Below, piece after piece: positions 55,366-59,186 of a stretch of 64,000 nucleotides of DNA (position 1 is the stretch's first letter; each line of letters begins with the position of its first letter). The notes below the pieces were generated by a model. That model did not search any database. It was not told the origin of the DNA and saw only the letters and a program-made list of their open reading frames with translations. The stretch is from Streptomyces scopuliridis RB72 (GTDB lineage Bacteria; Actinomycetota; Actinomycetes; Streptomycetales; Streptomycetaceae): assembly GCF_000718095.1 (NCBI RefSeq), contig NZ_JOEI01000013.1, forward strand, positions 62,001-126,000, given 5' to 3'. A program made the position numbers and the translations under genes.

Positions 55366-57156
55366 TCAGGAGGCGACGGTGGTACGGCGCTCCCGCGCGC
55401 CCTGGGCGAGGACCAGATCGACATCGACCGGCACTCCGCCGCCGGGATACTCCGCGGGAAGCGCGTGCGGCGCGTACCCCGTGGCCGTGCCCGCCAGTAC
55501 GTACGGTCCACTCGACGGCGGCAGCAGCGCGTAGCGGCCGTCCTCGTCGGCGGTGGTGCGGCCCGCCTGCCGGCCCCGGGGGTCGATCAGCGTGACGTTC
55601 GCCCGCGCGACCGGCGTACCGTCCGTGTCCACCACCCGCCCGCGGAACCCGCCCGACCCGGCGACCAGCGTCGGCTGCCGGCTCTGCTCGGCGTCGCCCG
55701 CCAGGGACGTGGGCCCCGGCGCGAACCGCTGCGCCGACCGCTGCGACGGCAGGAACGCGGCCAGCACCAGCCCGATGATCACCGCGCCCGTCGCGATGAG
55801 GAACGAGATACGGAATCCGTCCATGCTGGGGACGTCCACGCCTCCCGTCCGGATCGAGGTGTGCGCCAGCACCATGCCGATCACCGCGCTCGACACCGAG
55901 GTACCGATGGAGCGCATCAGAGTGTTCAGACCGTTGGCCGCGCCGGTCTCCGACGGGTCGACGGCGCCGATGATCAGGGCGGGGAGCGAGGAGTACGCGA
56001 GGCCGATACCGGCGCCCACGACGACCGAGATGACGACGGTCTGCCAGGCCGCGCTCATCAGGCCGAGGCCCGCTCCGTACCCGATCCCGATGATCAGCAT
56101 GCCGAGCATCAGCGAGACCTTGGGGCCGCGCCGGGCGGAGATCCGGGCGTAGACCGGCGCGGTGAACATCATCGTCAGACCGAGCGGCGCCACGCAGAGA
56201 CCTGCCATCAGCATCGACTGGCCCAGGCCGTAGCCGGTGGCGGCGGGCAGCTGGAGCAGCTGGGGGAGGACGAGCGAGATCGCGTAGAAGGCGACACCGA
56301 CCATGATCGAGGCGAGGTTGGTGAGCAGTACCTCACGCCGGGCGGTGGTGCGCAGATCGACCAGCGGGGCGGCGCTCCGCAGCTCCATCACGCCCCACAG
56401 CAGCAGGATGGCCACCGCCAGGCCGAACAGCCCGAGCGTGGTCGGCGAACCCCAGCCCCAGTCGCTGCCCTTGGTGATCGGCAGCAGGAGGGAGACGAGT
56501 CCGGCGGACAGCCCGAGCGCGCCGAGCCAGTCGAAGGTGCCGTCGGCCCGTACCGACGACTCCGGTACGTACCGGACGGTCAGGAGCATCGACAGCACGC
56601 CGAGCCCGGCCGCGCCGAAGAACAGCGCGTGCCAGTCGGCGTTCTGGGCGATCAGGGCCGCGGCGGGCAGCGCGAGCCCGCCGCCGACGCCGATGGACGA
56701 GCTCATCAGCGCCATCGCCGAGCCGAGCTTCTCGCGCGGCAGCTCGTCGCGCATGATGCCGATGCCGAGGGGTATCGCGCCCATCGCGAAGCCCTGGAGC
56801 GCCCTGCCGACGATCATGATGACCAGGTCATCGGTGAATCCGCAGATCAGCGAGCCGATCACCATCACGGCGAGGCTGGCGAGCAGCATCCGCCGCTTGC
56901 CGAAGAGATCGCCGAGCCGCCCCATGATCGGGGTGGAGACGGCGCCGGCGAGCAGGGTCGCGGTCATGACCCAGGTGGCGTTGGCGGGCGCCGTGTGGAG
57001 CAGGACGGGCAGGTCCTTGATGACGGGAACGAGCAGGGTCTGCATCACCGCGACGGTGATGCCCGCGAAGGCGAGGACGGGAACGATCCCGCCGGCTTTA
57101 CGGGTCGACGGATCCGGGAGCTCCCCGGCGTACTGATCGGTCGTCGTCTGTGGCAT
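55366..57156 (-). CDS. MFS exporter with C-terminal carboxypeptidase-regulatory-like domain
   Basis: This 596-residue protein has 14 TM segments in residues 20 to about 495, with the motif A loop GRLGDLFGKRRM and LMSSSIGVGGGLALPAAALI. The C-terminal part (about 515-596) is a small beta-sandwich: FRGRVVDTDGTPVARANVTL, TTADEDGRYALLPPSSGPY, a CarboxypepD_reg/SpaA-like fold. The start is ATG at 57156 with GGAGG eight bases away; the longer frame upstream overlaps the divergent clpP3 promoter. The fusion is known in Streptomyces exporters. The function of the tail is unknown. Confidence 0.88.
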   Translation of the reverse strand: MPQTTTDQYAGELPDPSTRKAGGIVPVLAFAGITVAVMQTLLVPVIKDLPVLLHTAPANATWVMTATLLAGAVSTPIMGRLGDLFGKRRMLLASLAVMVIGSLICGFTDDLVIMIVGRALQGFAMGAIPLGIGIMRDELPREKLGSAMALMSSSIGVGGGLALPAAALIAQNADWHALFFGAAGLGVLSMLLTVRYVPESSVRADGTFDWLGALGLSAGLVSLLLPITKGSDWGWGSPTTLGLFGLAVAILLLWGVMELRSAAPLVDLRTTARREVLLTNLASIMVGVAFYAISLVLPQLLQLPAATGYGLGQSMLMAGLCVAPLGLTMMFTAPVYARISARRGPKVSLMLGMLIIGIGYGAGLGLMSAAWQTVVISVVVGAGIGLAYSSLPALIIGAVDPSETGAANGLNTLMRSIGTSVSSAVIGMVLAHTSIRTGGVDVPSMDGFRISFLIATGAVIIGLVLAAFLPSQRSAQRFAPGPTSLAGDAEQSRQPTLVAGSGGFRGRVVDTDGTPVARANVTLIDPRGRQAGRTTADEDGRYALLPPSSGPYVLAGTATGYAPHALPAEYPGGGVPVDVDLVLAQGARERRTTVAS

Positions 57157-57271
57157 ACGTGCGGCCTCCGGGCAGGAAGTAAGGGCAGCTGAGAGTGCGT
57201 GACGGCAGGTGGATGCAGTATGAAACCTTCCAGTCGGCCGCGATATTCCGGCGAACGCGACGCAAACGGCA

Positions 57272-57297
57272 CCGGAAGAAGACGCCGGTTCTTCCGG
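57272..57297. promoter_or_regulatory. Inverted repeat CCGGAAGAA-N8-TTCTTCCGG
   Basis: A perfect 9-bp inverted repeat with an 8-base spacer lies between the divergent exporter and clpP3 genes, 116 bp from the exporter start. Its symmetry and location suggest an operator for a dimeric regulator; which one is unknown. Confidence 0.6.
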
Positions 57298-57343
57298 GCA
57301 CGTTCCTGACGCACCGTCAGAAGTGAGACGCGCGCCCCCCGGC

Positions 57344-57373
57344 TCTGCCATGGGCGAATCTGCCACGGGCCGA
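57344..57373 (+). promoter_or_regulatory. Two tandem PopR-like boxes upstream of clpP3
   Basis: TCTGCCATGGGCGAA (57344-57358) is followed directly by TCTGCCACGGGCCGA (57359-57373), a 15-bp tandem repeat with 12 of 15 positions equal. Each resembles the palindrome TTCTGCC-N3-GGCAGAA reported, as I recall, for PopR in Streptomyces lividans, the second copy being the better match. They lie 91-120 bp upstream of the clpP3 ATG, which suits an activator site. Confidence 0.6.
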
Positions 57374-57463
57374 GAACCCTTGGGCGGGCACCCGGCCGGA
57401 CCGAGAGTGGGATGACCGCGGCCACCACACCGGCCGCGCCACCCGACGACTTCCGGAGGACCG

Positions 57464-58117
57464 ATGACCGCACTCCTCACCGGTGGGAACCCCGCCCTCG
57501 ACCCGCGGGCCACCGCCGACGACACACCTCCGAGCCGGTTCGACGACCAGCTCGCGGCCCAGCTGCTCATGCAGCGGATCGTCTTCCTCGGCACCCAGGT
57601 GGACGAGGTTTCCGCGAACCGGGTCTGCGCCCAGCTGCTCCTGCTCTCGGCGGAGGACCCGCGTACCGACATCAGCCTCTACATCAACAGTCCGGGCGGC
57701 TCCGTGACGGCGGGGCTGGCGATCTACGACACGATGCGGCTGATCCCCAACGACGTCTCGACACTCGCCATGGGGTTCGCCGCCAGCATGGGGCAGTTCC
57801 TGCTCAGCGTCGGCGAGCGGGGCAAGCGCTACGCGCTGCCGAACGCGCGGATCATGATGCACCAGCCGTCGGCCGGCATCGGCGGGACCACCGCCGATAT
57901 CGCGATCCAGGCCGAGAACCTCGAATTCACGAAGAAGGCCATCGAGCGGATCACCGCGGAGCACACCGGCCAGACCGAGGAGACGATCTCCCGCGACGGC
58001 GACCGCGACCGGTGGTTCACGGCCGAGCAGGCGAGGGAGTACGGGATGGTCGACCGCGTGGTCGAGTCGCTCGACGACGTCCGCCCGGCCGGTACGCGAC
58101 GACGGATCGGACTCTGA
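57464..58117 (+). CDS. clpP3: ATP-dependent Clp protease proteolytic subunit (ClpP3-type)
   Basis: This 217-residue serine protease subunit has a complete triad: Ser108 in [12 protein letters not shown], His133 in IMMHQPSAG and Asp182 in [31 protein letters not shown] forms the oxyanion region. The N-terminal extension of about 25 residues is usual for Streptomyces ClpPs. The start is ATG 57464 with GGAGG ten bases upstream. Only one base separates its stop from the start of the second clpP gene, so they are co-expressed. The subunit assembles with Clp ATPases to degrade proteins, and this pair is normally switched on when ClpP1/P2 fail. Confidence 0.93.
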
Positions 58118-58118
58118 G

Positions 58119-58730
58119 ATGAGCCAGTACACGATCCCGACCGTCGTGGAGCGCACCCCGCAGGGGGAGCGGGCGTACGACATCTACAGCCGGCTGCTGT
58201 CCGAGCGGGTCATCTTCCTCGGCACCGAGATCGACGACGGCGTCGCCAACGTGGTCATCGCCCAACTCCTCCATCTGGAGTCGTCGAGCCCGGAGCGCGA
58301 GATCGCGATCTACATCAACTCGCCGGGCGGCTCGGTCACCTCACTCATGGCGATCTACGACACGATGACCTTCGTCGGCGCGCCGATCTCGACGTTCTGC
58401 GTGGGACAGGCGGCCTCGACCGCGGCGGTGCTGCTGGCGGGCGGCGACCCCGGGCGGCGGTTCGTCCTGGAGCACGCCCGGGTGCTGCTGGGGCAGCCGG
58501 CGAGCGGCGGCCGGCAGGGGACGGTCTCGGACCTCAGCCTCCAGGCGAAGGAGATGCTCAGGATCCGCTCGGAGATCGAGGAGGTGCTGTCCCGGCACAC
58601 GCACCACGACCCCGCGACCCTCCGCGCCGACATGGACCGCGACAAGGTCTTCACCGCGCACGAGGCGGTGGCGTACGGGCTGGCCGACGAGGTGCTGAGC
58701 AAGCGGGCGCTTGCTGTCCGGGGCGCGTAG
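58119..58730 (+). CDS. clpP4: Clp protease subunit (ClpP4-type) lacking the catalytic histidine
   Basis: This 203-residue ClpP-fold protein has Ser100 in [12 protein letters not shown] and Asp175 in [15 protein letters not shown] at the expected places. Where all active ClpPs have His in a MHQP or IHQP motif, it reads [11 protein letters not shown], with Gly125 encoded by GGG at 58491-58493. The subunit may therefore be catalytically inactive (ClpR-like) and act only in a mixed complex with ClpP3. Other signatures ([28 protein letters not shown]) are intact. It follows clpP3 directly and ends nine bases from the convergent popR. Confidence 0.92.
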
Positions 58731-58739
58731 CGGGTTCCG

Positions 58740-59186
58740 TCAGGCGGCGAGGAGACGCGCCTCGTACGACCCGGAGCCGCCGCGTCCCATGCCCGGCCTC
58801 TCCTGACCGATTCGGGTCTGGCGCGTGTGCGTCCGGCCGAGACGGGTCAGTTCGCCGTGGCTCAGGGCGAGCAGATCGGCCAGCCCGAGGCCGAGAGCGC
58901 GGGCGGCGGCCGCGAGGACTTCGGACGAAGCCTCCTTGCGGCCGCGCTCCAGCTCGGAGAGGTACGGCATCGAGATCCTGGCCGCCTCGGCGACATCCTT
59001 GAGTGTGCGCTCCTGGGCGAGGCGCTCGCGCCGCAGGACGTCTCCCACGAGGTGCCGCCAGAGCGGCTCTCTCGGCTCCCCGGCCCCTGCGGGCGGCGAG
59101 GCGGCGGCGTCCGGGGCCGGCGCGGCAGCCGCCGCCACCGGGCGCAGGGGAATGACGCGGGCTTGGTCGGTCGCGTGGCTGCTCAC
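58740..59186 (-). CDS. popR: PopR/ClgR-family helix-turn-helix regulator
   Basis: This 148-residue protein has an Ala/Pro-rich start and a Cro/C1-type HTH: RTLKDVAEAARISMPYLSEL followed by ERGRKEASSEVLAAAARALG, the ClgR/PopR signature. The C-terminus ends SYEARLLAA; a terminal Ala-Ala is the tag through which ClpP1/P2 degrade ClgR and PopR in S. lividans. Position next to clpP3-clpP4 confirms the assignment. It is expected to activate the clpP3-clpP4 operon when it accumulates, forming a feedback on proteolysis. It is convergent with clpP4. Confidence 0.92.
   Translation of the reverse strand: MSSHATDQARVIPLRPVAAAAAPAPDAAASPPAGAGEPREPLWRHLVGDVLRRERLAQERTLKDVAEAARISMPYLSELERGRKEASSEVLAAAARALGLGLADLLALSHGELTRLGRTHTRQTRIGQERPGMGRGGSGSYEARLLAA

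Follow-up and report, generated by a model that had tools for sequence, protein, structure and literature searches.

ClpP4 of Streptomycetaceae carries glycine at the catalytic histidine position and is a probable pseudoprotease partner of ClpP3

The window, i.e., the whole 64-kb stretch of DNA analysed, carries two ClpP genes in tandem. The first gene, clpP3 (57464..58117, + strand), encodes a ClpP with the full Ser-His-Asp triad, and its stop codon ends one base before the start of clpP4 (58119..58730, + strand). A PopR box is situated upstream of clpP3 (57344..57373, + strand) and has one mismatch to the published consensus, which was used here as quoted in the available text of PMC9775585. 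It is the single match with one mismatch in the 64-kb window, and no such match appeared in 100 shuffles. Convergent to clpP4 lies the gene of a ClgR/PopR-like helix-turn-helix regulator (58740..59186, - strand), whose C-terminus reads LLAA and which scores 82 bits against the NCBIfam ClgR model, under the model cut-off of 170. Its position and its two terminal alanines, together with the PopR box close by, make PopR the probable identity of the product. The frame at 55366-57672 (- strand), divergent from clpP3, resembles an MFS transporter with a C-terminal carboxypeptidase-regulatory-like stretch when its translation is judged by eye.

The arrangement resembles the PopR-controlled backup protease already described. 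In S. lividans, clpP3-clpP4 reportedly stays silent for as long as ClpP1P2 functions, and the cell needs either ClpP1P2 or ClpP3P4 in working order (available parts of PMC9765437 and PMC12607617). In that species, the PopR activator is reported to be degraded by ClpP1P2, which keeps the operon silent in the wild type (PMC9765437, in part). The clpP3 and clpP4 genes stand on one strand in 145 fetched stretches, some of them overlapping, with both genes complete, and on opposite strands in none.

The clpP4 gene is an intact open reading frame of 203 amino acids with an ATG start and a TAG stop. Its product fits the ClpP family (Pfam PF00574) by sequence profile and fold. The AlphaFold2 monomer model (mean pLDDT 88.7) is that of an ordinary ClpP subunit, and the fold looks intact in it. 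The nearest named ClpP4 proteins, among the 120 top-scoring entries out of about 8000 in the protein search, belong to Streptomyces. The complete Ser-His-Asp triad of active ClpP peptidases is absent from this protein, one residue of the three being lost: Gly125 (codon GGG, 58491..58493, + strand) stands at the catalytic His position. The nucleophile position is occupied by Ser100 (TCG, 58416..58418, + strand; context GQAAS), and Asp175 (GAC, 58641..58643, + strand) is likewise retained. In the adjoining ClpP3 the His motif is ARIMMHQP, and Ser and Asp are also present. The first-pass annotation had described clpP4 as an unshifted gene that keeps Ser100 and Asp175 with a Gly at the His position, next to a ClpP3 with the full triad; the reading of the frame and the ClpP3 sequence bore this out. 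The triad letters were identical in the profile-HMM and MAFFT alignments of the 112 sequences of the tree set.

For the Streptomycetaceae-type ClpP4, 191 distinct sequences more than 75% identical to the window ClpP4 and longer than 185 residues were compared. Position 125 is Gly in 190 of them and Arg in one Streptomyces protein (P0112), while His occurs in none. The same annotation had proposed aligning ClpP4 from many Streptomyces to learn whether the His-to-Gly change is general or specific; it is general, and a strain-specific change is ruled out by this count. Ser100 is found in all 191 sequences, and position 175 is occupied by Asp in 183 and by Glu in 8. Among the 77 ClpP4s with DNA available, Gly125 is encoded by GGC (35), GGG (33), GGA (7) and GGT (2). 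As the codon varies among four Gly codons, it is Gly itself that is held at this position. The segment between GQP and DL comprises 10 residues in 190/191 Streptomycetaceae ClpP4s, one more than usual, versus 9 residues in 118 of the 133 other sequences classed nearest ClpP4, general ClpPs included. Median dN/dS over 150 sampled pairs for each paralogue was 0.18 for ClpP4, 0.185 for ClpP3, 0.184 for ClpP2 and 0.373 for ClpP5. Each protein search contributed its 120 top-scoring sequences out of about 8000, and the contig scan the best 80 of 582. Pieces shorter than 180 or 185 residues, including a 129-aa piece of P0003, were excluded from the tree and the conservation counts. P0003 is a metagenomic protein of 331 aa, in which the front part of a ClpP4 appears to be fused with another ClpP that does have the catalytic His; the fusion may be real or an assembly artefact.

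At the genome level, the Gly motif was found in 194 of 392 sampled genomes of the genus, with the true figure somewhat lower owing to chance matches, such as those in G036, G048 and G102, where a close ClpP4 is missing, and the second matches in several genomes. The motif with a codon not starting with G gave 34 matches in 33 genomes; of the 30 fetched, two lay in a ClpP gene (G344 and G354), both with His. These two ClpP4s (L042 and L043) belong to the same genus, have intact triads and are placed in the Nocardiopsis branch of the tree, which suggests a horizontal replacement of the clpP3-clpP4 pair.

The fetched stretches contained 150 distinct ClpP4-class genes, of which 145 have a complete ClpP3 neighbour. 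The remaining five stand next to a ClpP1-like gene (three), at a contig end (one) or beside a ClpP3 gene that is split (one; L161, a 76%-complete genome whose two ClpP3 fragments were left unscored). The neighbouring ClpP3 is Ser-His-Asp in all 145 scorable pairs. The ClpP4s of these pairs have lost Ser or His in 97 cases, show a change of Asp only in 7 and are intact in 41. The triad is intact in all distinct control sequences, 34/34 for ClpP2 and 18/18 for ClpP1, and in 68 of the 70 ClpP sequences at loci L263-L333, most of which belong to other phyla. Two ClpPs outside the clpP3-clpP4 set have altered triads: an Ala-His-Asp protein of an Actinomycetales MAG (L276) and a Ser-His-Asn protein of a Neomarinimicrobiota MAG (L317).

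Of the 394 genomes sampled from the class, 84 have a ClpP4 match at E 1e-69 or better, as have 29 of 137 genera; some of the weaker matches are nearer to ClpP2. The triad of these proteins is altered in different ways. Jiangella ClpP4 has Glu for Ser together with Asn or His for Asp. Phytoactinopolyspora and many Streptosporangia-type ClpP4s have Asn for Asp. The Nocardioides-type proteins show Trp for Ser, or Ala for Ser with Gln for His, or Asp for His, and some are intact. Luteipulveratus has Ser for His, and one further genus has Ala for Ser. The triad of the Nocardiopsis type is mostly intact. The groups were named by protein identity, which is 100% to Jiangella anatolica, J. asiatica and Phytoactinopolyspora alkaliphila; identity to Nocardioides agariphilus is 79-84% for the Ser-to-Trp group and 73% for the protein with Ser-to-Ala and His-to-Gln, and the ClpP4 with Asp for His (64% identity) is called Nocardioides-type by family code only. 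Among the 120 proteins nearest to a Jiangella ClpP4 (the best 120 of 8000), 106 of 121 ClpP pieces are Ser-His-Asn.

A maximum-likelihood tree was built from 106 sequences (97 ClpP4-class and 9 ClpP2-class) with the three triad columns left out. Six changes are required on this tree to explain the loss of Ser or His, all six forced by well-supported branches, with a bootstrap 5-95% range of 6-6, for a bootstrap that is not fully settled and a tree in which several rows have long branches. Changes of Asp only (to Asn, Ser, His or Glu) were excluded from the count of lost activity in view of Listeria ClpP1, whose Asn-containing triad is rescued by the partner subunit. The distribution thus indicates at least six independent losses of Ser or His among actinomycete ClpP4s. 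Outside the Streptomycetaceae, ClpP4 is intact in 39 of the 65 scorable pairs; hence triad loss is not obligatory.

The genome harbours five ClpPs. Its ClpP5 (L005, G000:C2:436547-437089) has Gln in place of the catalytic His, with the motif LVLQQPA. In a sample of 74 genomes of the genus, taken from part of one match list with four genomes from another search, the ClpP5 triad is intact in 30 and altered in 44, at all three positions. On the tree, 14 changes fall on the His position and 10 each on Ser and Asp, with at least five switches between intact and altered states. With a dN/dS of 0.37, ClpP5 appears to be under weaker constraint than the other ClpPs. A link between the absence of ClpP4 and the breakdown of ClpP5 was considered and is not claimed. 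The raw counts, with ClpP4 presence entered by hand, are 22 intact ClpP5s with and 8 without ClpP4, and 11 altered ones with and 33 without (Fisher p 5e-5); five independent pairs stand behind them, and the association is not significant there.

The residues of the pocket that binds the ATPase or ADEP bear on the role of each subunit. Position 85, the third aromatic of the pocket, is aromatic in 186/187 Streptomycetaceae ClpP4s and in 32/32 ClpP2s, and is Leu in at least 71 of 74 ClpP3s. With an aromatic residue like that of ClpP2, opposite Leu in ClpP3, ClpP4 looks like the docking subunit. At the pocket positions named in PMC9765437, Streptomycetaceae ClpP4 (Ala/Ser-Tyr-Phe) resembles ClpP2 (Ser-Tyr-Phe), although its first residue may be Ala instead of Ser. 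As the ClpP3 pocket position is mixed outside the Streptomycetaceae, the docking argument is limited to this family. The first Tyr of ClpP1, relevant to ADEP, is absent from the residue types listed for Streptomycetaceae ClpP3 and ClpP4. This matches the ADEP insensitivity reported for ClpP3P4 in the available text of PMC12607617.

The proposed division of labour has a precedent in Streptomyces ClpP1P2, where cutting falls to ClpP1 and docking of the unfoldase to ClpP2. ClpP2 with Ser replaced by Ala left full activity in the casein assay, and mutants of the ClpP2 pocket abolished degradation (PMC9765437, in part). The same asymmetry of ClpP1P2 has been reported in another actinomycete (PMC9067928, in part). 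As far as the sequences go, triad loss in ClpP4 beside an intact ClpP3 fits a protease in which only ClpP3 cuts. ClpP4 is therefore regarded, with fair but not full confidence, as a pseudoprotease, which would form a non-catalytic ring and serve as the unfoldase-docking partner of ClpP3. In the proposed mechanism, PopR would turn on the clpP3-clpP4 operon upon failure of ClpP1P2, and ClpP3 and ClpP4 would form a mixed tetradecamer with cutting by ClpP3. ClpP4, while keeping the ClpP fold, would be unable to run the Ser-His-Asp charge relay; it would complete the barrel and supply a hydrophobic pocket as the docking site of the AAA+ unfoldase. The split into the ClpP1 cutter and the ClpP2 docker would here be taken one step further, the active site of the docker being dispensable and lost independently in several actinomycete lineages. 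In a subunit reduced to docking, the active site would be free to be lost, and repeatedly so.

An adaptive origin of the loss seems unlikely. It would mean that fewer cutting sites alter substrate residence, product size or turnover, and that selection fixed Gly125 and the one-residue-longer segment. The retention of Gly through synonymous changes and the 10-residue segment of the Streptomycetaceae would agree with this, as would the recurrence of losses in the same subunit. However, all three triad positions are hit and the replacement residues are many, which points to relaxed constraint rather than to one selected change. Moreover, a ClpP3/R core with the site restored in cyanobacterial ClpR was no faster, and the advantage of a mixed core is called unclear in the available text of PMC4673316.

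It is rather improbable that ClpP4 is still an active peptidase using another general base, be it through a Ser-Asp dyad, through H160 or H163, or through a His of the neighbouring subunit. The invariance of Ser100, the acidic residue at position 175 in all 191 sequences and the presence of His163 in 185 of them speak for this possibility. H52, H119, H160 and H163, however, are common to relatives that keep His125, and hence do not behave as replacements; H162 occurs in only 113/191 sequences, and by sequence none of these residues looks like a moved catalytic His. In other lineages Ser itself is lost (Glu in Jiangella, Trp or Ala in the Nocardioides type), so ClpP4 catalysis is dispensable there. 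The invariance of Ser100, which drifts in ClpP5 and in other ClpP4 lineages, is nevertheless the weightiest objection to a site that is simply dead, and leaves either a structural role or residual chemistry for this residue. In the available text of PMC4989188, decay of RelB in E. coli was faster with S. cattleya clpP4 or clpP5 plus clpX, in a host that has its own ClpP and under gene names that may not correspond to those used here; this report is therefore counted neither for nor against an active ClpP4.

There is virtually no probability that a pseudogene in decay or a faulty assembly accounts for Gly125 ClpP4, as the missing catalytic residue might suggest, given that Gly is common to 190/191 sequences, dN/dS is 0.18, ClpP3 is intact in 145/145 pairs and the PopR box is in place; the conservation, the four Gly codons and the dN/dS rule out a sequencing error or a frameshift as well.

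Should ClpP4 be the non-catalytic partner of ClpP3, active-site inhibitors could hit ClpP3, but not ClpP4, of the Streptomyces backup protease. The puzzle of why organisms keep dead ClpP subunits such as ClpR has so far been pursued chiefly in plants, cyanobacteria and apicoplasts. Actinomycetes offer matched bacterial pairs, in which ClpP3 stands with an intact ClpP4 (the Nocardiopsis group) or with an altered one (Streptomyces, Jiangella and some of the Nocardioides type), with different residues hit, which makes the question testable. A wider and clearly tentative view is that the actinomycete ClpP paralogues represent a replicated natural experiment in the birth of pseudoproteases. ClpP4 would have been inactivated on six or more occasions, and ClpP5 repeatedly within one genus. 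The dead subunits would be kept for a separate job, gained or retained, which might be docking and gating in the case of ClpP4, while ClpP5 might damp or re-target ClpP1P2.

The literature on ClpP3P4, in the parts available, yielded no mention of the His missing from ClpP4. The same partial literature yielded no description of family-wide ClpP4 fixation, of recurrent ClpP4 loss with an intact partner or of ClpP5 erosion; the S. lividans papers of 2000, 2002 and 2011 and an inhibitor paper of 2013 may mention the His. One sentence in the available text of PMC9067928 refers to a ClpR-like clpP allele of S. coelicolor without critical residues, the allele being unspecified.

Among the known systems, the PopR-controlled clpP3-clpP4 core of S. 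lividans is the closest. The window shares with it the tandem order, the PopR box, the ClgR/PopR-like neighbour, and both ClpP3 and ClpP4, and no difference between the two operons was found. ClpP1P2 of Streptomyces and other actinomycetes combines a cutter with a docker, as proposed here for ClpP3P4, and the catalytic Ser of ClpP2 is dispensable in vitro and in cells (PMC9765437, in part). In contrast to ClpP4, which has lost its triad, ClpP2 keeps it. Listeria ClpP1 (Asp172Asn) likewise has one triad residue replaced, in an organism with two ClpPs, and resembles the ClpP4s with Asn for Asp; its triad becomes aligned upon pairing with ClpP2 (PMC9765437, in part). As the change of His to Gly removes the general base, a rescue of the Listeria type would not be expected in Streptomycetaceae ClpP4.

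The other parallel is ClpR of cyanobacteria, plastids and the apicoplast, which, like ClpP4, has the ClpP fold without a complete triad and is kept beside an active ClpP. Unlike ClpR, ClpP4 retains Ser and Asp, and its mixed ring is a predicted one. In the tree of ClpP4- and ClpP2-class sequences, from which ClpR was absent, the Gly125 ClpP4s branch from within a group of actinomycete ClpP4s whose triads are intact, which probably indicates an origin separate from that of ClpR. The first-pass annotation had proposed that a ClpR-like subunit has arisen in an actinomycete, within a mixed barrel in which ClpP3 alone would cut and whose processivity or product size may be altered. The first part of this holds as regards a maintained subunit with triad loss beside an intact partner, and its wording undersells the case, the loss being both old and recurrent.
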